From: a virus
Strand: one strand, 5' to 3'
DNA: 47,084 bases
IMG/VR virus record: IMGVR_UViG_3300048596_000020
Span: 1 to 47,084 of that record
The stretch's first letter is position 1. The number at the start of each line of letters is the position of its first letter. Shown in pieces: positions 1-32,541 of this stretch. Below the pieces are notes generated by a model. It made no database searches and was not told the DNA's origin. It was given only the letters and a program-made list of their open reading frames with translations. A program made the position numbers and the translations under genes.

Positions 1-127
1 GCACCCGCTGCTGCTGTTCCGCCCGCGCCACCGCCACCAGCGTTGCCAGAAAGGTAGGTGCCGAAGGTCGTAGGATTGCCGTTGCCGCCAACGTTGCCGT
101 TGACATCATCAGTGCCCTTGGCAGAAC
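1..127. repeat. 127-bp direct terminal repeat, left copy
   Basis: Identical to 46958-47084. It lies inside the tail-fibre coding sequence and keeps the frame across the join. It is best read as the overlap left when a de Bruijn assembler closes a circular or circularly permuted genome (127 is a usual maximum k-mer). A true physical end inside a fibre gene is less likely. Confidence 0.95.
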
Positions 128-1049
128 CGCCGACGCCACCCGCGCCGATTGTGATTGCTACAGGCGTGGCCAGGTCAGCGATATGAAAATCTGCAGCACT
201 GCGCCCGCCTGCGCCGCCACCGCCACCACCGCAACGCACTGTGCCTGCAGCACCGCGCCGCCCGCTGCCGCCACCACCGCCGCCCGCAATCGGGATTACC
301 GTGCAACGCACGCCCTGCGCTGGTGGCGTCCATGATCCAGATACAGCAAAGGTCTGCACGTCAATCGCGCCGCCAGCAATAAGCGTGGCGCGCATCGCAG
401 CTTCATCGCCATCGTCCAGCAGCGCCAACGCTTTGTCGGTGATGGTTTTGTTTGCGGCTGCACCAGCACTGCTGCGCGCATAGAACGTATTGGCAGCGAG
501 CGAAAGCGCAGGCTGAAAATAACTCTTCAACTGCGCCCAGGTGAATTTCTTGACGATCCACGCGGCAGCAGAATCGAGGAATGAAAACTCGTCGGCATCG
601 ACAGGCGGATTCTTTGCAGCCGCCGCGTGCAACACTGCCGACACGTTCGCATCGGTGACGCTGGCAGGATCGCCGGGATCACCCTTGGGACCGGGCACGG
701 TGGAGTCTGCACCATCGTCGCCGGGATCACCCTTGGGACCGGGCACGGTGGAGTCTGCACCATCGTCACCTTTGTCACCCTTGGGGCCGGGCACGATGCT
801 GTCTGCACCAGGATCGCCGGGATCGCCCTTGTCGCCCTTGTCGCCGGGATCGCCCTTGGGACCGGGCACGGTGCTATCCGCACCAGGATCGCCGGGATCG
901 CCCTTGTCGCCTTTCGGTCCCGGCACGCCGACTGAAATCAGCAGCGGCACCAGTTCCAGCAACAACGGCTCGTTGTCGTAGTCCAGATTCATCACGCCTT
1001 GCTGCATCGTCAACGCAAGCGTGGCCGAACGTAGCGTGATGGTAAGCAT
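1..1049 (-). CDS. Collagen-like, glycine-rich tail fibre, N-terminal part (gene crosses the contig join)
   Basis: The gene starts at ATG 1049, overlapping the stop of the upstream gene as TGATG. It runs to base 1 and continues in frame in the copy at the other contig end (46957 down to 46501), giving 501 aa. A short head of about 40 residues is followed by collagen-type Gly-X-Y repeats (unit GPKGDPGDDGADSTVP and variants), then a segment of ordinary composition, then long Gly-rich runs. Collagen-like and glycine-rich modules are common in fibre proteins that reach the host surface, so a receptor-binding role is likely. Position at the distal end of the tail genes agrees. No adhesin fold is recognisable in the Gly-rich part. 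Confidence 0.85.
   Translation of the reverse strand, partial: MLTITLRSATLALTMQQGVMNLDYDNEPLLLELVPLLISVGVPGPKGDKGDPGDPGADSTVPGPKGDPGDKGDKGDPGDPGADSIVPGPKGDKGDDGADSTVPGPKGDPGDDGADSTVPGPKGDPGDPASVTDANVSAVLHAAAAKNPPVDADEFSFLDSAAAWIVKKFTWAQLKSYFQPALSLAANTFYARSSAGAAANKTITDKALALLDDGDEAAMRATLIAGGAIDVQTFAVSGSWTPPAQGVRCTVIPIAGGGGGGSGRRGAAGTVRCGGGGGGAGGRSAADFHIADLATPVAITIGAGGVGGSAKGTDDVNGNVGGNGNPTTFGTYLSGNAGGGGAGGTAAAG
668..930 (-). repeat. 48-bp coding repeats in the fibre gene (collagen-like)
   Basis: On the coding strand a 16-codon unit (GPKGDPGDDGADSTVP) recurs. Two units are nearly identical 48-bp copies (about 673-720 and 721-768), and variants insert or delete GDK triplets. Near-identical tandem units allow length change by recombination or slippage without loss of frame. 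Confidence 0.8.
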
Positions 1050-4034: not shown

Positions 4035-5387
4035 TCAAACCGTGGGGTAAGGCGTTGTTGGCGGGGTGAAGTTAGCCGTGTAGCGCGCGGCGCGCGTGAC
4101 GCGGACCCATCCGATCCAGCCATCCAGTTCGCCGTTGTTTGGCAGCGAGGGGCTGTCCGCACCGATGGTAAGACTCGCGCTCGCGCCGACTGCGGTAGAC
4201 CAGGCAATGTCCGCGCCCATCTGCACGCCGCCCTTGAACATTTTGGCGACAGAGCCGGATCGGCTGATGGCGAAGTGATCCTTCGTGTTCGCAGCAATCG
4301 AACCTGTGCGCTGGTTGACTGGCGAATCGCCTTGACGCATGTGCAAGCCCACGCCGCCACTGTCAATGCCGAACAGGAAGCCGCCACCCGCACCTGTGTA
4401 CTGGCTTATCAGCGCCATCAATTGAACGAACGTGCGTTCCTCCGCGTAGCATTCCAACGTGAAGTCGCCTGCGGTTCCAGAAGATACACCGAAGTTCCAG
4501 TCGGCATTGTTGTCGGTGATGAACACGGAATCCGACACGCCATCCAGCATCAGTGCGCCAAGCGGGAAGTGACTGTTGCCGGTGTCGATCTGCGCCTGAT
4601 TGTTCCAGGTGAACGCAGTGTGCCGCCCCGTAAGGTCGGTGACGCTTGTGCTGGTGTCTGCACCTTCGAAGGGCAGCAACAGCACCGTCTTTTCCCAGAA
4701 CGGATCAGCGAAGGTCGGCGCGACCCATGCGGACTTCCACGGCAACGCGCCAGTGGGGATCGCCATGTTGAATGCGGAGTCACCGAAGTTGACATCATCG
4801 CTGTCCGTGATGCCAAGCAATCCAAGCGCGGCATAAATCGCAGTGCCCGGAGTCACCGACCACGAATGCGTCGGCAGGGTTTCCAGCGATGGATCGCCGC
4901 CGCGCAACCATCCGGCAACATTGCTGGTGCGCGCCCACACGCGGATCAGGCCAGTAGATACATTGATGCGCACTGCCAAGCCCGCATATCCGCCAGCACT
5001 CACGCCTGCGCCGCCAGTACCGCCCGAAATAAGCGCACCGTTCTGATAGCACTGCCGCGTTGCGTTGGTGAAGTACCAGCCGAACGCGAGCGCGCCTGTG
5101 CCGGGATAGTTGGCGAGCGTGTCGCCTGGAACCATCAGGCCGAACAGATGACCGCCACTCGCATCCTTCACGGTGGCGCGTGCTTCCATGTAGAAGAAGC
5201 CCTCGGTATGCGTGTTGTTGCTGCGCACGCTATGCCACGCGCCTGCGCCGCCGCTCTTGCCAGCAGTCAGGTTGCCACCGGACAGCGCGATGTTCGCGTG
5301 CTTGTCGCTGGGATTCCAGGTCACGGTTCCGCCGCCGCCACCCGCCGATCCCCTTCCCATCACTGTCAGCATTTGACCGGGGCGCAT
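4035..5387 (-). CDS. Tail-tip receptor-binding candidate with SPRY-like and LamG-like domains (450 aa)
   Basis: After a Gly-rich linker, residues about 20-225 look like a B30.2/SPRY fold (HTEGFFYMEARATVKD, GGHLFGLM, GALAFGWYF strands). Residues about 235-450 look like a laminin-G/concanavalin-A-like jelly roll (VLLLPFEGADTS, ALMLDGVSDSVFI, FTLECYAEER, WIGWVRVTRAARY). Both are binding folds for proteins or glycans. ATG 5387 begins one base after the preceding stop; an in-frame start 30 bp earlier overlaps the upstream gene and is less likely. Placed after gpJ, it is a good receptor-binding candidate. Confidence 0.7.
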   Translation of the reverse strand: MRPGQMLTVMGRGSAGGGGGTVTWNPSDKHANIALSGGNLTAGKSGGAGAWHSVRSNNTHTEGFFYMEARATVKDASGGHLFGLMVPGDTLANYPGTGALAFGWYFTNATRQCYQNGALISGGTGGAGVSAGGYAGLAVRINVSTGLIRVWARTSNVAGWLRGGDPSLETLPTHSWSVTPGTAIYAALGLLGITDSDDVNFGDSAFNMAIPTGALPWKSAWVAPTFADPFWEKTVLLLPFEGADTSTSVTDLTGRHTAFTWNNQAQIDTGNSHFPLGALMLDGVSDSVFITDNNADWNFGVSSGTAGDFTLECYAEERTFVQLMALISQYTGAGGGFLFGIDSGGVGLHMRQGDSPVNQRTGSIAANTKDHFAISRSGSVAKMFKGGVQMGADIAWSTAVGASASLTIGADSPSLPNNGELDGWIGWVRVTRAARYTANFTPPTTPYPTV

Positions 5388-5388
5388 A

Positions 5389-5991
5389 TCAGGATTCCTG
5401 CGAGACAGACACGACATCCCACTTCGTATCGTCGGAGTTGTAGACCATGCCGATATACAGCAGCTTGCCTGGCACCGTGGCCACGGGCAGCGTCACGCCG
5501 ATGGCGCGGTACTGCGTACCGTAAGTGATGGCGCGCGAAGTGCCATTGTCTTTGATGCGGATGGCCATTGCGAAGCCGGGAATCGCCGTGCCGGTCGGAT
5601 TGGCGAACGCCAGCGCAACAGCCTGCGCAGTGACCTTCACCATATCGTCCGAGAACGTGGGCGTCACCGTCGCTGCAGATGCCACGGCTTGAATCGACGG
5701 CGAGCGATTTTGTTTCAGCGCAAGCGCGTTGGTGACGGTAGTTGCGAACGCTGCATCGTTACCGATTGCAGTGGCCAGTTCGACCAGCGTGTTCAACCCT
5801 GTAGGCGCAGCACCGATCAGCGCAGCGATGTCCGCAGCAGTGGCAACCACATACTCTGTACCGGCGTCATCCTTGTAGCAGAAGAACGGACCTGTCTTGC
5901 CGTAGGTGACGATATGCCCTGCGGCGGGCGTTGCTGGTGCTGCAGCGACTTTCAGGAACAGCTTGCGGTATTTGCTTTCGTCGCCGTACAT
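5389..5991 (-). CDS. Tail-fibre-like protein (200 aa)
   Basis: The centre contains LNTLVELATAIGNDAAFATT followed by VTNALALKQ, the helical shaft repeat typical of T4/lambda-type side fibres. It is followed by a beta-rich C-terminal half with several Val/Thr strands. It follows gpJ closely (stop 5389, gpJ stop 6001) and precedes the SPRY/LamG gene. It is likely part of the central or side fibre; no chaperone domain seen. Confidence 0.7.
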   Translation of the reverse strand: MYGDESKYRKLFLKVAAAPATPAAGHIVTYGKTGPFFCYKDDAGTEYVVATAADIAALIGAAPTGLNTLVELATAIGNDAAFATTVTNALALKQNRSPSIQAVASAATVTPTFSDDMVKVTAQAVALAFANPTGTAIPGFAMAIRIKDNGTSRAITYGTQYRAIGVTLPVATVPGKLLYIGMVYNSDDTKWDVVSVSQES

Positions 5992-6000
5992 GATGTTTTC

Positions 6001-8250
6001 CTAGAGGCTGTTAAGGACGTTTCCGGTTTCGAAGTCAACCAGCACTTCGCCAGTCGTGAAGTCGGTAAGAACCTCGGACTGTTGCAACGCTCCGATGGTA
6101 AGCGTAGCACTCACTCGCGGTTGGGACGCAATGCCCGTGTAGCCAATCGCTTTCACGCTGGCGATCCAGTCTCCCGGCAACACGTTGGGCACTTCGTACA
6201 GCGTGCCGCGCACGCGCACCAGCGGCGTCCACTCTTCCAGGTTGCGGCGCAGGGAAATCTCGTAGCGCAGCGCAGTGGGCACCTGATCCCACGCTACCGA
6301 CAGCACGTTGCGCGCAGTGGGTCCGTCATACACCGTGCGCGTGGTCAGCGTCACGGTGGCGGGCGCGGCCTGCACACGCGAAGGTTTCTGCGCGGGGTCT
6401 TGCGGCTGGATGGTGATGCCGAAGTCGGACGCTTCGAACTTGGCCGGATCATGCACGATGGCCAGCACGCTGAACGCGATGGACTTTTCATTCGCTTCCT
6501 CGGTCACGCCCAGCACTTTCCACAGCGATGCGGGCGCTTCCTCCGATTCGATAATCCATGCGGCGTCCGTTACTGGCGCAGCGTCGAACGCGGGGCTGAC
6601 AGTGATCGTGCTTGCACCAACTGCACTGACCGGACGCGTCTGCGAAATGCCGGTCGGCAGGATCACGGTCAGGTTGAAACCGACCGCAACCGTGGGCATG
6701 ACATCGGGCGTGATTACGCTGGTAGTCGCGGCACGCACACGCCCGCCCCGGCGCGCGGCATCGCGCAACCGATCAGCGATGCGAATGATATGGCCTGGCT
6801 GCGGGATCGTGCCGTCCAGCCCCACGCCGAAGGTGACAGTGTTCGTTTCCAGCCGTTCACTCAGCAGCGCCCACACGCCGCAGCGATGCGCCTGGCCCTG
6901 CGATGACGCACCGATAGCCGTCATCGACAGTTGCTGGATGCCGTAACGCGCGATGCCATCTTCATCGGGAACGTACTCCACCTTGCCGCGCCCGAAGTCG
7001 CTGGGATCGCCCCACGACACCAGCGCAACCGTGTGCCGCGCCTGCCGCGACGAACCTTGATACGAGAACCGTCCGTTGATGACGTTGGAGTTGTTGAAGG
7101 TATAGACCGGATCGGCGGGCCTGTCCGCGATGGCCATGATTTTGCCAGCCGCCCAAAAGCTGATGCCGCGAAACACGCTGGCCAGGTCTTGCATGACCTT
7201 GTACGCATCGGCTTGCTTCTGCAGGTACAGGTCGCAAGTAAAGCGCGGCTCGCTGCCGCCAAGTCCATCGTCAACCAGTTCGTCGCAATACTGGCCGATC
7301 TGATACAGGCTCCACTTGTCAACCTGCGCGTCGGCCAGGAAGCGGCCCAGGCCATAGCGATAGTTGGTCGCCATATCGAAGTAAATCCACGCGGGATTGT
7401 TCGTCCATGCAACCTTGAACGTGCCGTCCCATGAGCCAGTGTAGATGCGCGTGATCGGATCGTAGTTCGCGGGCACGCGGATGATGCGGCCCTTCAAGCG
7501 ATAGGCGCGCGTGGGGATCGCGCGGAACTGCGATGCGTCGATGCGCAGGCCCACTACCGCGCTGTTGGGCATGCGCAGGTTGGCGCGGATCAACTCGGTG
7601 TAGCTGACCACGCTGGTCTGATCCTGAATGTATTGCGTGTTCGCTTCCGGCGTGATCCGGCGCACGCGCAACAGCCAGTTGGTAGTCGCCTCGGGCAACA
7701 CGATGACGTAGGAACGCTCGTAAGGCGATGACGCCTTGCCGTTGAACTCGTCGCGCAGTATTTCCGTGTAGCCGCCACCGTCCACGGACAAGTCGATAGC
7801 GAACTCGACAACGTAGCCGTTGGTGTCGTCAGTCTCGGGATCAACTTCGGACAGCGCAGCAACCGCCAGGCGCACACGCACGCCGGTCAGCGCAGTGTTC
7901 GTGAAGTTATGCGTCCAGGGCGTAGTTGTTTCCAGCAGCACGCCGACTGCAGTTTCGCTTTCGACTTCGGGGAAGCTGTCAAGCGGTTCCTGGTACTGAG
8001 TGCCGGAACGGATGTCAACGTACACATTCTTGAAGTTGAAGCTGCCATCGGGATTCTGCAGCGGCGTTTCATCCAGGTAAATATCCTGCAGCCCGTTCTC
8101 AAACATTTCGCACTCGCCTTCACTCAGCAAGTCGATGATGCGAGCGTAGGCAACGGAATGCAGAGTGTCCGGCGCTTCAACAGGCGTGTGCTGTTCTTCC
8201 GTGGGCGCTTTGCCCATGCCGCCCGAACCACGGATCATGCTGTCATCCAT
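6001..8250 (-). CDS. J: Central tail-tip/host-specificity protein J
   Basis: Homologue of lambda gpJ, the hub protein of the tail tip. Seen: YARIIDLLSEGE, the core FENGLQDIYLDETPLQNPDG and VDIRSGTQYQEPLDSFP stretches, and conserved receptor-side beta domains through about residue 600. A fibronectin III-like module follows at about 615-710 (LSVAWDQVPTALRYEISLRR). At 749 aa it is about 380 residues shorter than lambda gpJ and ends just after the FN3 module. Receptor recognition is therefore probably carried by the separate fibre genes downstream. It follows the I-like gene after 3 bp. Confidence 0.92.
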   Translation of the reverse strand: MDDSMIRGSGGMGKAPTEEQHTPVEAPDTLHSVAYARIIDLLSEGECEMFENGLQDIYLDETPLQNPDGSFNFKNVYVDIRSGTQYQEPLDSFPEVESETAVGVLLETTTPWTHNFTNTALTGVRVRLAVAALSEVDPETDDTNGYVVEFAIDLSVDGGGYTEILRDEFNGKASSPYERSYVIVLPEATTNWLLRVRRITPEANTQYIQDQTSVVSYTELIRANLRMPNSAVVGLRIDASQFRAIPTRAYRLKGRIIRVPANYDPITRIYTGSWDGTFKVAWTNNPAWIYFDMATNYRYGLGRFLADAQVDKWSLYQIGQYCDELVDDGLGGSEPRFTCDLYLQKQADAYKVMQDLASVFRGISFWAAGKIMAIADRPADPVYTFNNSNVINGRFSYQGSSRQARHTVALVSWGDPSDFGRGKVEYVPDEDGIARYGIQQLSMTAIGASSQGQAHRCGVWALLSERLETNTVTFGVGLDGTIPQPGHIIRIADRLRDAARRGGRVRAATTSVITPDVMPTVAVGFNLTVILPTGISQTRPVSAVGASTITVSPAFDAAPVTDAAWIIESEEAPASLWKVLGVTEEANEKSIAFSVLAIVHDPAKFEASDFGITIQPQDPAQKPSRVQAAPATVTLTTRTVYDGPTARNVLSVAWDQVPTALRYEISLRRNLEEWTPLVRVRGTLYEVPNVLPGDWIASVKAIGYTGIASQPRVSATLTIGALQQSEVLTDFTTGEVLVDFETGNVLNSL

Positions 8251-8253
8251 TTA

Positions 8254-9765
8254 TCACCGCCCGAAAAGCATAAGAGCGTAAGTAGCATAACCGGGAAGGT
8301 CCAGGTTCCAGTTGTCGCCAGCGTCGATGCTGGTGCGCACCTGGAACGCGCTGCCCGCTCCGCCTTCGGCAAACACAACGACATCGCCCATGCACTTCGC
8401 CTGGTGCGCCTGCCAACTCGTAGTGACCTGTACCAGGTTCCACGCAACGCCCATGTTGGTGCTGCGATAGATTCCGTGTGCGTTGAACTGCACATACCAG
8501 GCGTCATTGTTGTTGCCGCAGATGGCCCAGGCGTGCGTACCGACTTCTGCTGCAGGAATGCCAGCATCAAGCCAGGTCTGCCCGTCCAGCGAATACTCCA
8601 AGACATCAAAGGAACTCAGGAACACGGTGCCGGTGAAGTTCACAGCTTCGCCGCGCGCACCGTATGGACCGTGCCAAGCGTTACCGTCAACCGACCAGAA
8701 CTTGCCGCCGTCGCCGCCCGCAACATAGCGTCCGTTGCCGTGCGTAAGCGAAGTGATGCTGCTCCCCATCACAGAACCGGCGCTGATAGAGAACGTGCGG
8801 CCACCGTCATCGGACACTGCCCAATAGACAGGTGCCAGGAAAGTGTTTTCAGTCAGTGCGATGACAACCTGGCCGAAGTTGTTGGACGCTACCGCTTGCA
8901 CATGCTGACCCGGCAACGCGCCGCCCACGCCGGTCAGGTTGGCGGTCTTGATCCAGGTGCCAGTTACGCCGCGATAGGTGGAAACGTAGACATAGCCATC
9001 GGATGCGTAGCAGCAAACTTCGTCGCCGTTGGTCGCACCGTGACGCAACGTGATCGCGCCAGCCATGACATCGGACAGGTCGTACTCGTTGAACTCGACG
9101 CCATCCTCGGTCGTGCGGAACTTGCGCAGACCGCCCGCAAGTCCGATGGCGGGAATCGTGTTGTCGCCAATCGGAACATCCGTGCTGATGCCTGCGCTGA
9201 CCACTGCGCTGCCGCACCACGGATTGCCATAGGCAACCGGCACACAGTTGCCCTGCGCTTGCGTGTTCACGGGGCCATTGAATGCGTAGTTAGGTTCGTT
9301 CTCTACCTTGTCTTTGCTCTTCGGGTCTTTCGGCTGCGGCGACAGCAACTGCACCACGCCGCCCAGCGCCATCGCTACGCCCGCGTTGAACAGTGCTGCA
9401 GCGAACAGCCCGCCCGCGCCTGGCAGCAGGAAGCTGACACCGATCAGCACCACACCGATGATGATGGAAAACAGACCGCCGCTCTTCGATCCCATGATGA
9501 TCGGCGCGATGCGGATGTCGTTGTTGGCGCGGAAGTGCAACTGCTCTTCGGGGATGTTGCGCTTGCCGATGAATACTGCGAAGCCGATGCCGTGATCCTT
9601 GGCGTTCATCAGGTACGCTTCGAAGCCATCCAGCAGCACGCACAGCGCACGCACGGCTTCCGCAGCGGAGTCAACCGCCAGCCGATGCACGCGCCCGAAG
9701 CGCACGCCGAACTCGCCGTACAGGCGGATGGTGCGCAACGACTCGTAGAGGGGTTTCGTGGTCAC
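8254..9765 (-). CDS. I: Tail assembly protein I fused to an Asp-box beta-propeller
   Basis: Residues 1-195 match lambda tail assembly protein I: RTIRLYGEFGVRFGR, a Gly/hydrophobic segment at about 97-141, and the end motif FNGPVNTQAQGN...VPVAYG. Lambda gpI ends near here, but this protein continues for about 310 residues. The extension holds repeated BNR/Asp-box motifs S-x-D-x-G-x-T-W: SDDGGRTF (318), SVDGNAW (358), SLDGQTW (392), STNMGVAW (435) and SIDAGDNW (479), plus a weaker one near 262. Asp boxes mark blades of sialidase-type and photosystem-assembly-type propellers. No sialidase catalytic Arg triad or FRIP motif is evident, so binding or structure is more likely than hydrolysis. Confidence 0.85.
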   Translation of the reverse strand: MTTKPLYESLRTIRLYGEFGVRFGRVHRLAVDSAAEAVRALCVLLDGFEAYLMNAKDHGIGFAVFIGKRNIPEEQLHFRANNDIRIAPIIMGSKSGGLFSIIIGVVLIGVSFLLPGAGGLFAAALFNAGVAMALGGVVQLLSPQPKDPKSKDKVENEPNYAFNGPVNTQAQGNCVPVAYGNPWCGSAVVSAGISTDVPIGDNTIPAIGLAGGLRKFRTTEDGVEFNEYDLSDVMAGAITLRHGATNGDEVCCYASDGYVYVSTYRGVTGTWIKTANLTGVGGALPGQHVQAVASNNFGQVVIALTENTFLAPVYWAVSDDGGRTFSISAGSVMGSSITSLTHGNGRYVAGGDGGKFWSVDGNAWHGPYGARGEAVNFTGTVFLSSFDVLEYSLDGQTWLDAGIPAAEVGTHAWAICGNNNDAWYVQFNAHGIYRSTNMGVAWNLVQVTTSWQAHQAKCMGDVVVFAEGGAGSAFQVRTSIDAGDNWNLDLPGYATYALMLFGR

Positions 9766-10505
9766 GGCAGATACCTGATGATGCGGCGGGTTTTTTCCTG
9801 GTACATGGAATTGCGGTAAGGACTGATCATCGACAGGTGCCCGTACATGTGGTGGAGCATCTGATCCTCGCCAACGAACACGCCCGCATGGTTGGCGAAG
9901 GGAGCGCGAATTTGCATCAGCGCAACATCGCCCACGCGGATGATGTCATCGCGCACTTCCTTGAAGCCCGCCAATTCATACTGAGCGTACAGGTCCATTG
10001 CTGGCCCAAATTTATCGTTCCAGAAATTATCGTGCCGCTCAAAATCCAGCAGTTCGATATTCCGCTCGCGCTTGTACCAGTCCCGCAGCAGCGTGTAACA
10101 GTCTAGGACGCCGAAAAAGAACTCCCGGCCTACGAGGGGGGCTTCGTACCCGCTCGGTGCCCACATGAAGTCTCCTACGATGCGCGGCACGGCATCCTCG
10201 GGCTGTTTCCAGACGGCCACGATGAACCAGGGTTTATTGGACTTTTCGCAGGCGACCTTATCGCCCTGGGACGGACGCGCCGGGATATTCGGATGGCTAT
10301 GCACCACGCAAGTAATTTCGCCGCGCTCTTCCGCGTCGGCGTAGTCCATCGGATGAATTGCGAAATGCTCGTTGACGGTGCGCGCGATGTTGCGGCAGGG
10401 CAGATAAATTTCGCCCGCTGCCGTATCCACCACCAGGCCGCACGCCTCGCGCGGGAAGTCGCGCAGCGCATGCGCGTCGATGGCTTGGCGAGTCTCGGGA
10501 TTCAT
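9762..10505 (-). CDS. K: Tail tip protein K: JAMM plus NlpC/P60 peptidase domains
   Basis: 247 aa with the lambda gpK arrangement. The N-terminal Mov34/JAMM-type metallopeptidase domain has Glu20, the motif H69-S-H71-P, Ser79 and Asp82, so the zinc site is complete. The C-terminal NlpC/P60 domain has LDCYTLLRDWY (catalytic Cys136) and NHAGVFVG (His206). It probably acts in tail-tip assembly and in local peptidoglycan cleavage at DNA entry. ATGA-type overlaps with its neighbours keep the lambda order M-L-K-I-J. Confidence 0.92.
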   Translation of the reverse strand: MNPETRQAIDAHALRDFPREACGLVVDTAAGEIYLPCRNIARTVNEHFAIHPMDYADAEERGEITCVVHSHPNIPARPSQGDKVACEKSNKPWFIVAVWKQPEDAVPRIVGDFMWAPSGYEAPLVGREFFFGVLDCYTLLRDWYKRERNIELLDFERHDNFWNDKFGPAMDLYAQYELAGFKEVRDDIIRVGDVALMQIRAPFANHAGVFVGEDQMLHHMYGHLSMISPYRNSMYQEKTRRIIRYLP

Positions 10506-11197
10506 ACGCGGATCAACCCTGCTGCGGGGAACGCTCCCGTGGGCAGCTTACCAGCTTCGCCAAAGCGCAATTTGCAACTGGTCAGCCGACCGCCGCAGCG
10601 ATCCAGCAAAGGGTCCGCAGTGGGCGTGTCATCGCGCTTGGCAACGGGCGGGCCGCTGTAGGTGCAATTCGGTCCACGGTAGCCGCCGATGGCCAGCCAC
10701 GAACACACGTTGGCGATGATCAGCCGACCGGGAAGTTGCGCGTTGCTGAACTCCATCGCGCTCGCCAGTTCGAACTCCACCGCTTCGGGCGTTTCGTTGG
10801 TCTTGCGATCCACGAACCACAACTCGGCGGGGAACTGCTGGTCGGGATCGGCGTCTGGATTGATGCCGCCCGGAAAATTTACTGCGTCCAGATATTTCTT
10901 GAACGTGCGGCGGCGGATAAGCACCGCGCCAACCAAATCTTCATACAGCATGCACAGCGACGAGATAGAGCCGTTGATGTTGCCCACGCTCAGACGCGGA
11001 CGCGGCGGTTGCGCGCCAGTGCGCGCGAAGCCTTCCGCCTTGATCGCCCACGGTCCATAGTCCTCGCCGTTCCACACGATCAGGCCATCACTGTGACCGT
11101 GGAAGCGCATGTAGTCCGCACCGAATGCCGTACCGTCCAGTTCGAACAGTTCGATGATCGCACCCGGCTCCAATTTCTGCTGGTCGGATTCGATCAC
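10502..11197 (-). CDS. L: Minor tail protein L (Fe-S tail-tip protein)
   Basis: 231-aa homologue of lambda gpL, part of the tail-tip hub. It has the diagnostic N-terminal LEPGAIIELFELDGTAFG and the C-terminal cysteine pattern Cys165, Cys178, Cys201, Cys208, which corresponds to the four cysteines that bind an iron-sulfur cluster in lambda gpL. It lies between M and K with short overlaps on both sides. Confidence 0.92.
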   Translation of the reverse strand: MIESDQQKLEPGAIIELFELDGTAFGADYMRFHGHSDGLIVWNGEDYGPWAIKAEGFARTGAQPPRPRLSVGNINGSISSLCMLYEDLVGAVLIRRRTFKKYLDAVNFPGGINPDADPDQQFPAELWFVDRKTNETPEAVEFELASAMEFSNAQLPGRLIIANVCSWLAIGGYRGPNCTYSGPPVAKRDDTPTADPLLDRCGGRLTSCKLRFGEAGKLPTGAFPAAGLIRV

Positions 11198-29347: not shown

Positions 29348-31909
29348 TCAATGGGTTGGTTGGGTTTGAAGTTGGGTTTGGAGTTGGTCTAGTTCAAGCC
29401 TTGCATCCCCCTTAAAGCCATTCTTGATCCAGATGGTGTGCGTGGAGTTGCGCCACTTCAACTGCTTGGGCAATTTACTGTAGCCCATCCGGGTCAGCAT
29501 GTGATTTAGTGCCATCGTCCTCGGGACTTCAAACCCATCGGTCATCGCCCGAACCTTCAAAGCGTTGGTCAGGCAACTGCTGGAAATCACGTTCCGGCTG
29601 ATCCCATGCGCCCCCTCGCTAATTATAGATTCGGCCACGGACTCGGCATCTTCCTGGCTCGACGCCATCATCTGCATCTTCTCAGGCGTCATCAGGGCGC
29701 TGCCATCCGCATCGAATCCATCCAGCGGCAACGCCAGCAGCCACGCGCGCAGTTCGCCCGCACAGTGCTTCCACGCATGGTCTACGGCATCGGTGCGCGC
29801 CTTCCAACCCGCAGCGTCCAGTCCGCAGTACGTCAACATTTCGGTCAGGCTCGACCAGGGCGTAAAGACAATGAACCAGCGACGGTCGCCCAACTCCAAT
29901 GGAATAGCGTCATTGTGGTTGGTGAAGGCAACATGGTTGGTGATGTTCCAGGTCTTGTATCCCTTGTCGCCTTTCGCATTGACGCTGATGACATCGTTCG
30001 AAATACAATCCTTCATAGCGTTGTAGATGGTGTATCGGATTTTGCCGGTCAGCATGATTTCTTCGATGAAGTTGATCGCGCTGCCAACCTTCCAGTCATC
30101 GAATTGCCCGCTGTTGGTCAGTACGGTGTTGCCGGTCACGCCGACATTGCGGTATCCCATTGCCGCACGCACTGCCGCCGCGACCAGGCTCTTGCCGTCA
30201 CCCTGCGTACCCTTGATCAGCGGCGACCATCGCACCTTCACGCCAGGCCGCTGTACGTTGTGCGCCAACCATCCCAGCAGCGCAGTGAATACGTCCTGCC
30301 TGCGACCGCACATATCCCACAACAACGCCTGCAGTGCCGCGATCCCCGCAATCCCCCGCTCCGTATAGCTCGTCGCCGTGATCGGCACGCTGTTCGCGTT
30401 GTACTTATTCGCGTAGTCGTAGCCGTCCCACGAAAACAGATTCTCTTTGTCAGGCCGATAGCCCAGGTGATGCACGGTCGCAATGTTCCAGCGAGTGAAC
30501 GCCCATTCGACCGGATCTTCCCGCGCGCCACTTTCACGCATCGGCATCAGCCGCGAATACTCCGCACGGAATGACTGATAGCTCAACTCCGAACCGTCCG
30601 CGCAGTTGTAGAAGAAATCGCCCGCCTTGACGTACACATGCTGTTGCATCCACAACGGCGGCTCCGATCCCTTGCCGCCCGCGATCACTGGCGGGAACAG
30701 CAGCGCACGCACCTTGGCAACCGGCAGTTTCGCCTTCCAGATTTCCAGCCGTTCGTTGACGCTGCGCACGATCAGTTCCTGATACGCCCCCGGCACGCCC
30801 GCGCTGCGAATGCTGGGGATGATCAGGTTGTGCATATCCTCCACCGTGCCGCACGCACTCACGGCATCCAACAACGCCTGCACCTGTGCCTTCTGCTCGG
30901 CAGTGATCAACTCGCCCCCAACGCTCTGCACCGTCACAGGCGCACCGCTGCCGTACATTTCAGTCTGCACCGCGATACTGCGCTGCGGTTCCTGGTAGAC
31001 CTGGCTGCAGCCCGCGCACGCATTCGCAATGGTCAACTCGCGCAGGTAGGTGCGATGTTCGTTCCATTTCTCCCGCGCCAGTCCGCTTTTGCGCATCAGC
31101 CGTTCGATCCGCTCTTCATCGCAGCCGGTCCAGAACGCCAGGTGCGAAGCGAGCGCCATATCATGCTCGCTGCTCAACTCCACTTCACCGCGCCACAACT
31201 GGCCGAAGGTAGCCTTGCCTCCGAACACGCTGGCCGCACCCGCACGCGCAGCGAGCGCCTTTGCAATCAGCGCATCATCATCGGCAGGGCCACGCCACTC
31301 GGCGCGCGGACCATCGCCACGCTCGCCAGCCACACGCGGCGGGAAATACTTTCCGATCAGCGTGGCCACCATCGCATCATGGCAACTGTCCGCATTGCCC
31401 TGCGCGATCCCATCCAGGCCGAACGCAATGCCGCGCCCCTCGGTGTAGAACTCCATGTGCAGCTTGTGGATGTCGCGGCTACGATGTTCGCCAATAGGCG
31501 CAGCAGTTTTGCCGATGATATGGATACCGCGCTTGCTGCTGCTCCACTCCATCAGCGCACCGGGGAAGCACGCCGCCATCCCTGCAGCGAACTCAGACAG
31601 CACGCCATCAACAGCACAACCGTCGATGTCGAAGAACCAGTAGCCGCAATCGGCGGTCATCCAGAAGCCCAGCGCATAACGCAGCGCACCTTGGCTCGAC
31701 GCAGCGCGAACATCCAGCAATGCCGCCACGCTCACGGCATCGTCGTAGCGCATCCAGTTCTTCGAATCGCCAGCGTCCAGCTTGAACACGCTGCCGTCAT
31801 TCGCGCACGGAGTTTTCTTGTACTTCGCTTCAACGCCATCCCATTCCAGCCGCCACACGAACCACTGCGGAATGTTCTTCATCCCGCCCAACGCATCATG
31901 CAAACTCAT
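29348..31909 (-). CDS. Primase with C-terminal SF3 (D5-type) helicase
   Basis: 853 aa from ATG 31909, overlapping the methyltransferase-like stop (ATGA). The N-terminal half looks like a primase-polymerase/D5 N-terminal region: IPQWFVWRLEW opening, YWFFDIDG with catalytic Asp-x-Asp (about residue 90), SSSKRGIHIIGK, and EFYTEGRGIAFGLDG. The C-terminal superfamily 3 ATPase: Walker A GTQGDGKS (about 570), Walker B AINFIEEI, sensor VAFTNHNDAIPLELGDRRWF. It would unwind and prime phage DNA. It ends beside the origin candidate. Confidence 0.9.
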   Translation of the reverse strand: MSLHDALGGMKNIPQWFVWRLEWDGVEAKYKKTPCANDGSVFKLDAGDSKNWMRYDDAVSVAALLDVRAASSQGALRYALGFWMTADCGYWFFDIDGCAVDGVLSEFAAGMAACFPGALMEWSSSKRGIHIIGKTAAPIGEHRSRDIHKLHMEFYTEGRGIAFGLDGIAQGNADSCHDAMVATLIGKYFPPRVAGERGDGPRAEWRGPADDDALIAKALAARAGAASVFGGKATFGQLWRGEVELSSEHDMALASHLAFWTGCDEERIERLMRKSGLAREKWNEHRTYLRELTIANACAGCSQVYQEPQRSIAVQTEMYGSGAPVTVQSVGGELITAEQKAQVQALLDAVSACGTVEDMHNLIIPSIRSAGVPGAYQELIVRSVNERLEIWKAKLPVAKVRALLFPPVIAGGKGSEPPLWMQQHVYVKAGDFFYNCADGSELSYQSFRAEYSRLMPMRESGAREDPVEWAFTRWNIATVHHLGYRPDKENLFSWDGYDYANKYNANSVPITATSYTERGIAGIAALQALLWDMCGRRQDVFTALLGWLAHNVQRPGVKVRWSPLIKGTQGDGKSLVAAAVRAAMGYRNVGVTGNTVLTNSGQFDDWKVGSAINFIEEIMLTGKIRYTIYNAMKDCISNDVISVNAKGDKGYKTWNITNHVAFTNHNDAIPLELGDRRWFIVFTPWSSLTEMLTYCGLDAAGWKARTDAVDHAWKHCAGELRAWLLALPLDGFDADGSALMTPEKMQMMASSQEDAESVAESIISEGAHGISRNVISSSCLTNALKVRAMTDGFEVPRTMALNHMLTRMGYSKLPKQLKWRNSTHTIWIKNGFKGDARLELDQLQTQLQTQPTH

Positions 31910-32541
31910 GCTGCCATCCCCCATTGTTCGGCATAGGCATCGGAGTGCCCTTGCAATGTTTCGCTGCGCTTCTGCCAGCGGTCAGCACCTGGAGGCATGC
32001 GATGCACGCGGCTCCATACTTTATGCTCTTGCGTGCCCACTGCAGGCGGCACAAGAATCTTCGTCGGCTGCAGCAGCGGCACGCCGCGAATCCACAGGCA
32101 GGTAGCCTTGAACTCGGGATGCCCGAACTGCCACGGCTGGATGATCTGCGATGGACCGCAACCGATGATTGCCTGCGCGTGACCGTGCATGATCGGATTC
32201 TCCGCGACCACGCGCGGAATATCGGCGTTCAACATTTCCTTGAAGAACTCCGCCGCCTCGCGCATCTTCTGCCATCGCGGCAGGTACGGGCCATTCTCTT
32301 TGCGACCGTCGATATACAGGTGCTTCACGCCGCTGTTGCACAGGAACGTACAGGTCGGATGCACGATGAACAAATCGAAGTAGCCGCGCATGCAATGCAG
32401 AACATGGCGAATGTCCTGCTGGAAATGCCACGGGCTGTTGTCGGCGCTGGGCAGCAAATCGCAACTCCATGCTTCATGCCCGCGTCGGCGGAACGCTTCG
32501 CGCGTCTTGCCGCTGCTCTCGCACCCGATCAGAACTCTCAT
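31906..32541 (-). CDS. DNA cytosine C5-methyltransferase-like protein
   Basis: 211 aa from ATG 32541 (ATGA overlap). Rossmann-type opening MRVLIGCESSGKTREAFRRR, then GHEAWSCDLLPS, FIVHPTCTFLCNSG (in the place of the PC motif with catalytic Cys) and VVAENPIMHGHA (ENP, in the place of ENV), ending in WQFGHPEFKATCLWIRGVP. This family is common in phages and usually labelled cytosine methyltransferase. It is shorter than true C5 enzymes and has no obvious target-recognition domain, so activity is uncertain. No restriction enzyme partner is present. Confidence 0.75.
   Translation of the reverse strand: MRVLIGCESSGKTREAFRRRGHEAWSCDLLPSADNSPWHFQQDIRHVLHCMRGYFDLFIVHPTCTFLCNSGVKHLYIDGRKENGPYLPRWQKMREAAEFFKEMLNADIPRVVAENPIMHGHAQAIIGCGPSQIIQPWQFGHPEFKATCLWIRGVPLLQPTKILVPPAVGTQEHKVWSRVHRMPPGADRWQKRSETLQGHSDAYAEQWGMAA

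Follow-up and report, generated by a model that had tools for sequence, protein, structure and literature searches.

What does an additional domain do at the C-terminus of a protein that, in phage lambda, plugs the tail tip? This question is raised by one gene of IMG/VR virus record IMGVR_UViG_3300048596_000020, a stretch of 47,084 bases (the window) from an uncultured bacterial virus. The gene encodes gpI, the lambda-type tail assembly protein I (TAPI), whose chain continues into an extension of 307 amino acids. The initial annotation had placed it at 8254-9765 as a gpI with a C-terminal Asp-box propeller. The coordinates held, and the strand was corrected to minus; the frame opens with GTG, reads from 9765 to 8254 without an internal stop, and encodes 503 amino acids. 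Judged from the sequence, an ordinary lambda gpI occupies residues 1-196, and motifs, profiles and model identify residues 197-503 as a divergent Asp-box (BNR) β-propeller of seven units. The gpI-propeller combination is a new domain architecture in a known protein family. Published work is cited below by PMC number, in each case from excerpts of the paper.

The gpI half and its Asp-box extension

The fusion gene was divided into the following parts.

8254..9765, minus: gene of the I-propeller fusion; open frame, GTG start, 503 aa, with phrog_32 on residues 9-196 and a 307-aa extension
9490..9765, minus: residues 1-92, PF06805 part, predicted β-grasp (ubiquitin-like), to the invariant Gly92; from modelled secondary structure and PMC1779556
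9343..9489, minus: residues 93-141, two predicted hydrophobic helices (94-113 and 119-141); from AlphaFold (AF2) secondary structure, in the place of H1/H2 of lambda gpI
9178..9342, minus: residues 142-196, putative plug and the strands that thread gpJ in lambda; from gpI alignments and PDB gpI chains
8257..9177, minus: residues 197-503, predicted seven-unit Asp-box (BNR) β-propeller; from motifs, profiles and model
9091..9114, minus: Asp-box unit 1, TTEDGVEF, residues 218-225; relaxed pattern
8953..8982, minus: degenerate unit 2, STYRGVTGTW, residues 262-271; local L-INS-i alignment, poorly modelled
8791..8814, minus: Asp-box unit 3, SDDGGRTF, residues 318-325; relaxed pattern
8674..8694, minus: Asp-box unit 4, SVDGNAW, residues 358-364; relaxed pattern
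8572..8592, minus: Asp-box unit 5, SLDGQTW, residues 392-398; relaxed pattern
8440..8463, minus: Asp-box unit 6, STNMGVAW, residues 435-442; relaxed pattern
8308..8331, minus: Asp-box unit 7, SIDAGDNW, residues 479-486; relaxed pattern

Residues 9-196 matched the phrog_32 profile 'tail assembly protein' (E = 1.6e-66, profile positions 3-198 of 203), and residues 12-93 matched PF06805 (Lambda_tail_I) with 35.3 bits, above the cut-off of 23.8. Gly92 was unchanged in 50 of 50 alignment rows. The predicted local distance difference test score (pLDDT) of the AF2 model was mostly above 94 for residues 11-90, where the modelled secondary structure fits a ubiquitin-like β-grasp; Foldseek, run on the whole model, returned nothing significant. 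The two helices, with a Kyte-Doolittle maximum of 2.5 at residues 96-114, correspond in place to the hydrophobic helices H1 and H2 described for lambda gpI (PMC11101478). Residues 142-196 contain the conserved sequence YxFNGPVNTxAQGNPVPxxYG...GSAVxSAGI, the conserved end of gpI lying at residues 156-193, and the PDB gpI chains 25vf, 9l9p, 8iyk (lambda) and 9e7m aligned up to residue ~195 by phmmer and profile search.

The extension was then read for Asp-boxes, of which five or six had been claimed. Repeated Asp-boxes were indeed present, although their number was seven, with the second unit degenerate. The strict motif S-x-D-x-G-x-x-W occurred once (479-486). A relaxed pattern gave six sites (218, 318, 358, 392, 435 and 478) with nine overlapping starts, a number never reached in 5,000 shuffles, whose mean was 0.53 starts. 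Unit 2 (262-271) came from the local alignment only and stands outside this count. The units were spaced 34-56 aa apart, as blade-spaced repeats. An ungapped self-comparison of the extension scored at best 36 against a shuffle 95% level of 41, so simple self-repeat scores alone are no proof of repeats. A hidden Markov model made from the extension's own blades was dropped as evidence because it is circular.

Among known families, PF02012 (BNR) matched the extension at E = 5.9e-4 with 19.9 bits, under its cut-off of 27, which is a score threshold and not a feature of the fold. NCBIfam NF045728 (BNR-type glycosylhydrolase) matched at E = 7.7e-6, far under its cut-off. No match was obtained for the propeller by phmmer in the PDB sequences, and no significant one in PHROGs. 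IMG/VR was searched with a DNA pattern of three Asp-boxes in a row, which found at least 119 stretches, and from these 59 distinct viral propeller segments were taken. The seven units of the extension stood in register with these segments in the local alignment, the second in degenerate form, and the extension was 15-27% identical to the viral propellers. The profile of the 59 segments, from which the window sequence was left out, was tested on 12,883 frames and 2,000 shuffles. The window frame scored 33.7 bits (E = 1.3e-8), and the best shuffle reached 9.2 bits. The only other inclusion-level matches were two loci collected earlier for their resemblance to the extension, L182 and L183. These two and L186, from ten weak genome hits of the propeller, were read as Asp-box proteins; L184, L185, L187, L188, L190 and L191 were rejected as such on reading.

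Structure prediction of the extension, a check named earlier, likewise returned a propeller fold. When the full protein was run in AlphaFold together with 49 gpI relatives, the N-terminal domain of gpI was modelled well, and residues 146-503 were mostly below pLDDT 50. A second run was made on the extension only, with an alignment of 48 of the 59 viral propeller segments as input, and yielded consecutive four-stranded units with a mean pLDDT of 69.8 and a predicted template-modelling score (pTM) of 0.68. With this model, Foldseek found 569 matches in the PDB at E ≤0.001, including sortilin, YCF48, GH74 and BNR proteins, as well as matches to viral proteins, many of them without names. VIA-align against PDB propellers gave Z up to 15.5. 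The predicted fold supports the propeller and is no independent proof of it. Taken together, the motifs, the 59-propeller profile and the model matches bore out the claimed fusion of gpI with a C-terminal Asp-box propeller.

Extensions of gpI in related phages

For comparison, 170 relatives were collected: 10 named phages, the best 80 of 582 confirmed loci in IMG/VR, and the best 80 of 326 confirmed loci in GTDB. Past residue 193, their gpI frames continued for at most 80 aa and mostly for 6 aa, compared to 310 aa in the window. Two IMG/VR scans were added (the best 80 of 499 and the best 80 of 398), and L182-L191 and L283-L401 were excluded before the count. The tails of 281 distinct gpI frames were ≤10 aa in 232, 11-50 aa in 34, 51-100 aa in 7, 101-600 aa in 7, and >600 aa in 1. 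Only the window scored as a propeller among these 281 frames. Tails of 101-600 aa belonged to the window (307 aa), L176 (201), L220 (167), L251 (156), L404 (136), L403 (135) and L231 (135), and the single longer case, L177, is an I-J fusion with complete gpI and gpJ in a single 1,766-aa frame. The proteins of L403 and L404 were 83% and 72% identical to the whole L231 protein, including the extension of ~135 aa, on three contigs; because they match it throughout, extensions of the L231 type are maintained. With seven long tails in 281 frames, the gpI C-terminus is therefore a recurrent but rarely used fusion site.

In whole genomes, phrog_32 was found in 17 of 399, 27 of 398, 19 of 299 and 16 of 293, these sets being overlapping. 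Full-length gpI matches in frames >340 aa were those of G236 (L176) and G386 (L177), both already counted. Frames of 499-1,810 aa held several partial matches; of these, L179 was read and proved to be a C-terminal half of gpI joined to J. In the excerpts of open-access literature, no gpI-propeller and no C-terminal gpI fusion was found other than the fusions of TAPI with TAPJ and with TAPK in PMC1779556. Separately, the gpI of L176 (1538-2767, minus) comes from a bacterial genome, and the Pfam matches of its 201-aa extension (VWD, F5/F8 type C) all stayed below threshold. Tandem gpI gene pairs were observed in L251, G955:C1, G890:C52, G225:C1 and G006:C1.

Probable position and role of the propeller

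Along the minus strand, the tape measure gene (14816-11523) is followed by M, L, K, I and J, after which come two fibre-like genes and one for an Amidase_3 protein. Thus, gpI lies between K (10505-9762) and J (8250-6001), all on the minus strand, which is the operon position of TAPI. The genes that bear on the tail tip are as follows.

10502..11197, minus: gene L, minor tail (hub) protein; PF05100, E = 1.1e-65
9762..10505, minus: gene K, JAB peptidase and NlpC/P60; PF14464 and PF00877, JAMM motif HSHPNIPARPSQGD at residue 69
6001..8250, minus: gene J, 749 aa, hub and FNIII-A present, without the central fibre part; PF24801, PF13550 and the nine-relative alignment
5389..5991, minus: 200-aa tail-fibre-like protein, downstream of J; phrog tail fibre matches
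4035..5417, minus: 460-aa virion/fibre-like protein, candidate for receptor binding; phrog_3545 and phrog_18802, no Pfam match
3..1049, minus: collagen-like fibre with a glycine-rich end, candidate for receptor binding; extends past the window edge

Elsewhere in the window, 29348-31924 on the minus strand encodes a protein with NrS-1 polymerase-like HBD and DUF5906 domains.

The initial annotation took gpI to be absent from the lambda virion, a view stated by Iyer et al. in 2006 (PMC1779556). This premise is outdated, as cryo-electron microscopy and mass spectrometry place gpI in the tip (PMC10721106, PMC11101478). Lambda gpI was detected by mass spectrometry, and its residues 135-223 were built in the tip (PMC10721106). 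From residue 101, it was resolved as a trimeric plug; the chain comprises an unresolved N-terminal domain, two hydrophobic helices, the plug, and strands running through openings between the domains of the hub, and the plug moves out upon receptor binding (PMC11101478). The gp34 protein of T1 resembles lambda gpI (PMC11945409). Retention of the fusion protein in the particle, earlier drawn as a special implication, is thus simply expected, because lambda gpI resides in the tip. In the window, the propeller begins ~4 residues past the last conserved gpI position. Since lambda gpI is a trimeric plug threaded through gpJ, the propeller most likely lies outside the tip, in three copies per virion.

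The neighboring gpJ was compared with its relatives. It has 749 aa, retains FNIII-A (PF24801), and ends shortly past the FNIII region common to all nine aligned relatives. By coordinates, the J proteins of nine annotated named relatives have 1,041-1,414 aa, the tenth, L007, being unannotated. Among 80 J frames of the fetched loci that were counted as complete, 72 had at least 873 aa. Five of the eight shorter ones were read: four continue in the next frame, indicating an interruption, and that of L255 ends near the locus end; the three remaining frames have 95-106 aa. A frame-broken J in the window was rejected, as the open reading frame next to J had no J-like match. Because most J frames are long and most of the short ones that were read are interrupted, the loss of the gpJ fibre looks real and uncommon. 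Since J stops after the first FNIII domain, the propeller may carry part of the host binding.

The explanation we favor, with chances that we judge to be about even, is a tip plug with an exposed, non-catalytic, host-binding propeller. The gpI/TAPI plug protein would bear a seven-bladed Asp-box propeller at its C-terminus, and gpK would probably clip the N-terminal ubiquitin-like domain during assembly. The remainder would trimerise within the hub, block the tube, and thread out between the gpJ hub domains, as is known for lambda and as the conserved sequence suggests here. Because the propeller follows the last conserved strand almost without a linker, three propellers would be located on the outer side of the tip cone, close to the FNIII portion of gpJ. 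They would most likely be non-catalytic modules that bind the host surface, either a sugar or a protein, and putative glycan binding is plausible. Such binding may supplement or partly replace the central fibre missing from gpJ. Domains of this kind frequently serve to hold on to surface molecules. As a precedent, Gp45 of phi11 is a propeller receptor-binding protein, alongside which phiKZ gp131C and phage endosialidases are cited (PMC4901313).

Several points weigh against this explanation. The extension model is of middling quality, and its residues 38-91 (unit 2) are poor, this unit apparently being out of register in the alignment given to AlphaFold. As this input was made up of propellers, the model and the homology claim are not independent of each other. 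The T1 insertion protein was placed in the lumen, with only residues 92-163 of 199 built (PMC11945409). The outside position relies on published descriptions of the lambda structures. The phage encodes other binding candidates, namely the 200-aa and 460-aa proteins and the collagen-like fibre. The search for the same fusion in other phages, also proposed earlier, found no second contig in IMG/VR scans with the whole protein and with the propeller alone, and scans with J and with a three-sequence propeller alignment gave no relative. Furthermore, tblastn of the propeller against 50,697 phage records showed no match even at E 10.

The propeller could instead be purely structural, serving to stabilise the tip, to shield the J/I interface or to aid assembly, while binding nothing on the host. 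It is positioned directly past the strands that pair with gpJ in lambda (PMC10721106), a J without a fibre may leave a tip that needs closure, and further host-binding candidates are encoded downstream. However, gpI extensions vary in sequence among lineages, which fits an exposed variable module better, and we consider a purely structural role unlikely.

A tip enzyme (a glycosidase or a capsule-degrading enzyme), similar to sialidase- or GH74-type Asp-box proteins, would agree with the best NCBIfam match (BNR-type glycosylhydrolase, E = 7.7e-6), with the GH74 enzymes among the structure matches, and with the phage endosialidases, which are propellers (PMC4901313). Nevertheless, the family scores were all far under the curated cut-offs, and the fold also matched many non-enzymes, e.g., sortilin and YCF48. 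GH74 enzymes consist of two propellers with the active site between them, and the matched ones have ~700 aa, compared to one propeller of 307 aa here. An enzymatic propeller is thus quite improbable.

Processing was considered for both ends of gpI. The gpK of the window has JAB and NlpC/P60 domains, and its JAMM motif is intact. The JAB domain of gpK has been predicted to free the TAPI ubiquitin-like domain at its terminal Gly (PMC1779556), and such cleavage of the window gpI is possible. With a cut at Gly92, the N-terminal domain would be lost, and the propeller would stay attached to the plug half, which resides in the virion. This 2006 prediction of TAPI processing by TAPK also lends something to the idea that gpI is cleaved after translation and releases its C-terminal part, to become a separate protein or be lost before the virion is completed; yet the plug lies between the predicted site, Gly92 (invariant in 50/50), and the propeller. 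An internal start codon of the propeller's own was rejected, since no ribosome site precedes Val188 or Met234 near the border. We regard C-terminal release as highly doubtful.

The frame is open over both fusion borders, and an assembly join is not suspected: an artefact or one-off mutant, toward which a single contig and the lack of close relatives in the collections searched would point, would need two in-frame borders. J begins 3 bases past the I-propeller stop, and GC content, GC content at third codon positions and codon use of the extension lie inside the range of neighboring genes. An artefact or one-off mutant is very improbable indeed.

Comparison with known tail tips

The window protein shares with lambda gpI/TAPI (PF06805, phrog_32, including T1 gp34) the L-K-I-J order, the conserved segments, and the length to residue 196. 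Whereas 232 of the 281 frames end ≤10 aa past that point, the window adds a 307-aa propeller. Fusions of TAPI with J or K (PMC1779556; L177) similarly form a longer chain, but the partner there is another tail-tip protein, in contrast to the surface-type domain of the window. The extensions of L231/L403/L404, L176 and L220/L251 start from the same point, just past the conserved last strand; unlike the window, they have 135-201 aa and no propeller score. The viral BNR/Asp-box propellers of IMG/VR (DUF6242-like and similar) resemble the extension in their ~40-aa units, S-x-D-G-x-x-W motif, and often six to seven boxes, and no gpI domain was present among the 119 matches listed. Additionally, L398 (4254-7484, plus) encodes an Rcc01698-like hub protein of the gene transfer agent type, with an Asp-box stretch ahead of its Phage-tail_3 domain.

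Propellers at the baseplate or tip are also represented by phi11 Gp45, which is trimeric, and phiKZ gp131C (PMC4901313). However, the Gp45 propeller is five-bladed and sits on a fibre protein of its own (PMC4901313), whereas the window propeller is carried on the plug protein. Salmonella phage Jersey resembles the window in having a J-like hub without a C-terminal fibre and a binding candidate elsewhere on the hub (PMC13243795). In Jersey, an Ig-like domain is added to the gpJ-like protein, and the hub is described as two polypeptides, like gpL plus gpJ (PMC13243795).

Lambda-like tips are among the best-studied siphophage tips, and gpI was placed there as the plug only recently. The fusion shows that the gpI C-terminus tolerates, and probably exposes, a whole domain, which naturally marks where this end lies. 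Direct pulling on the tube-sealing plug is possible because the propeller is covalently joined to gpI; it is rather unlikely, in our estimate, that receptor sensing has shifted from the J fibre to the plug in this way. If it had, sensor and plug would be one chain, with no relay via a fibre. The gpI-propeller fusion together with a fibreless gpJ suggests a new mode of attaching binding domains to lambda-like tails, and this combination would make the coupling of receptor binding to plug release testable with one protein.
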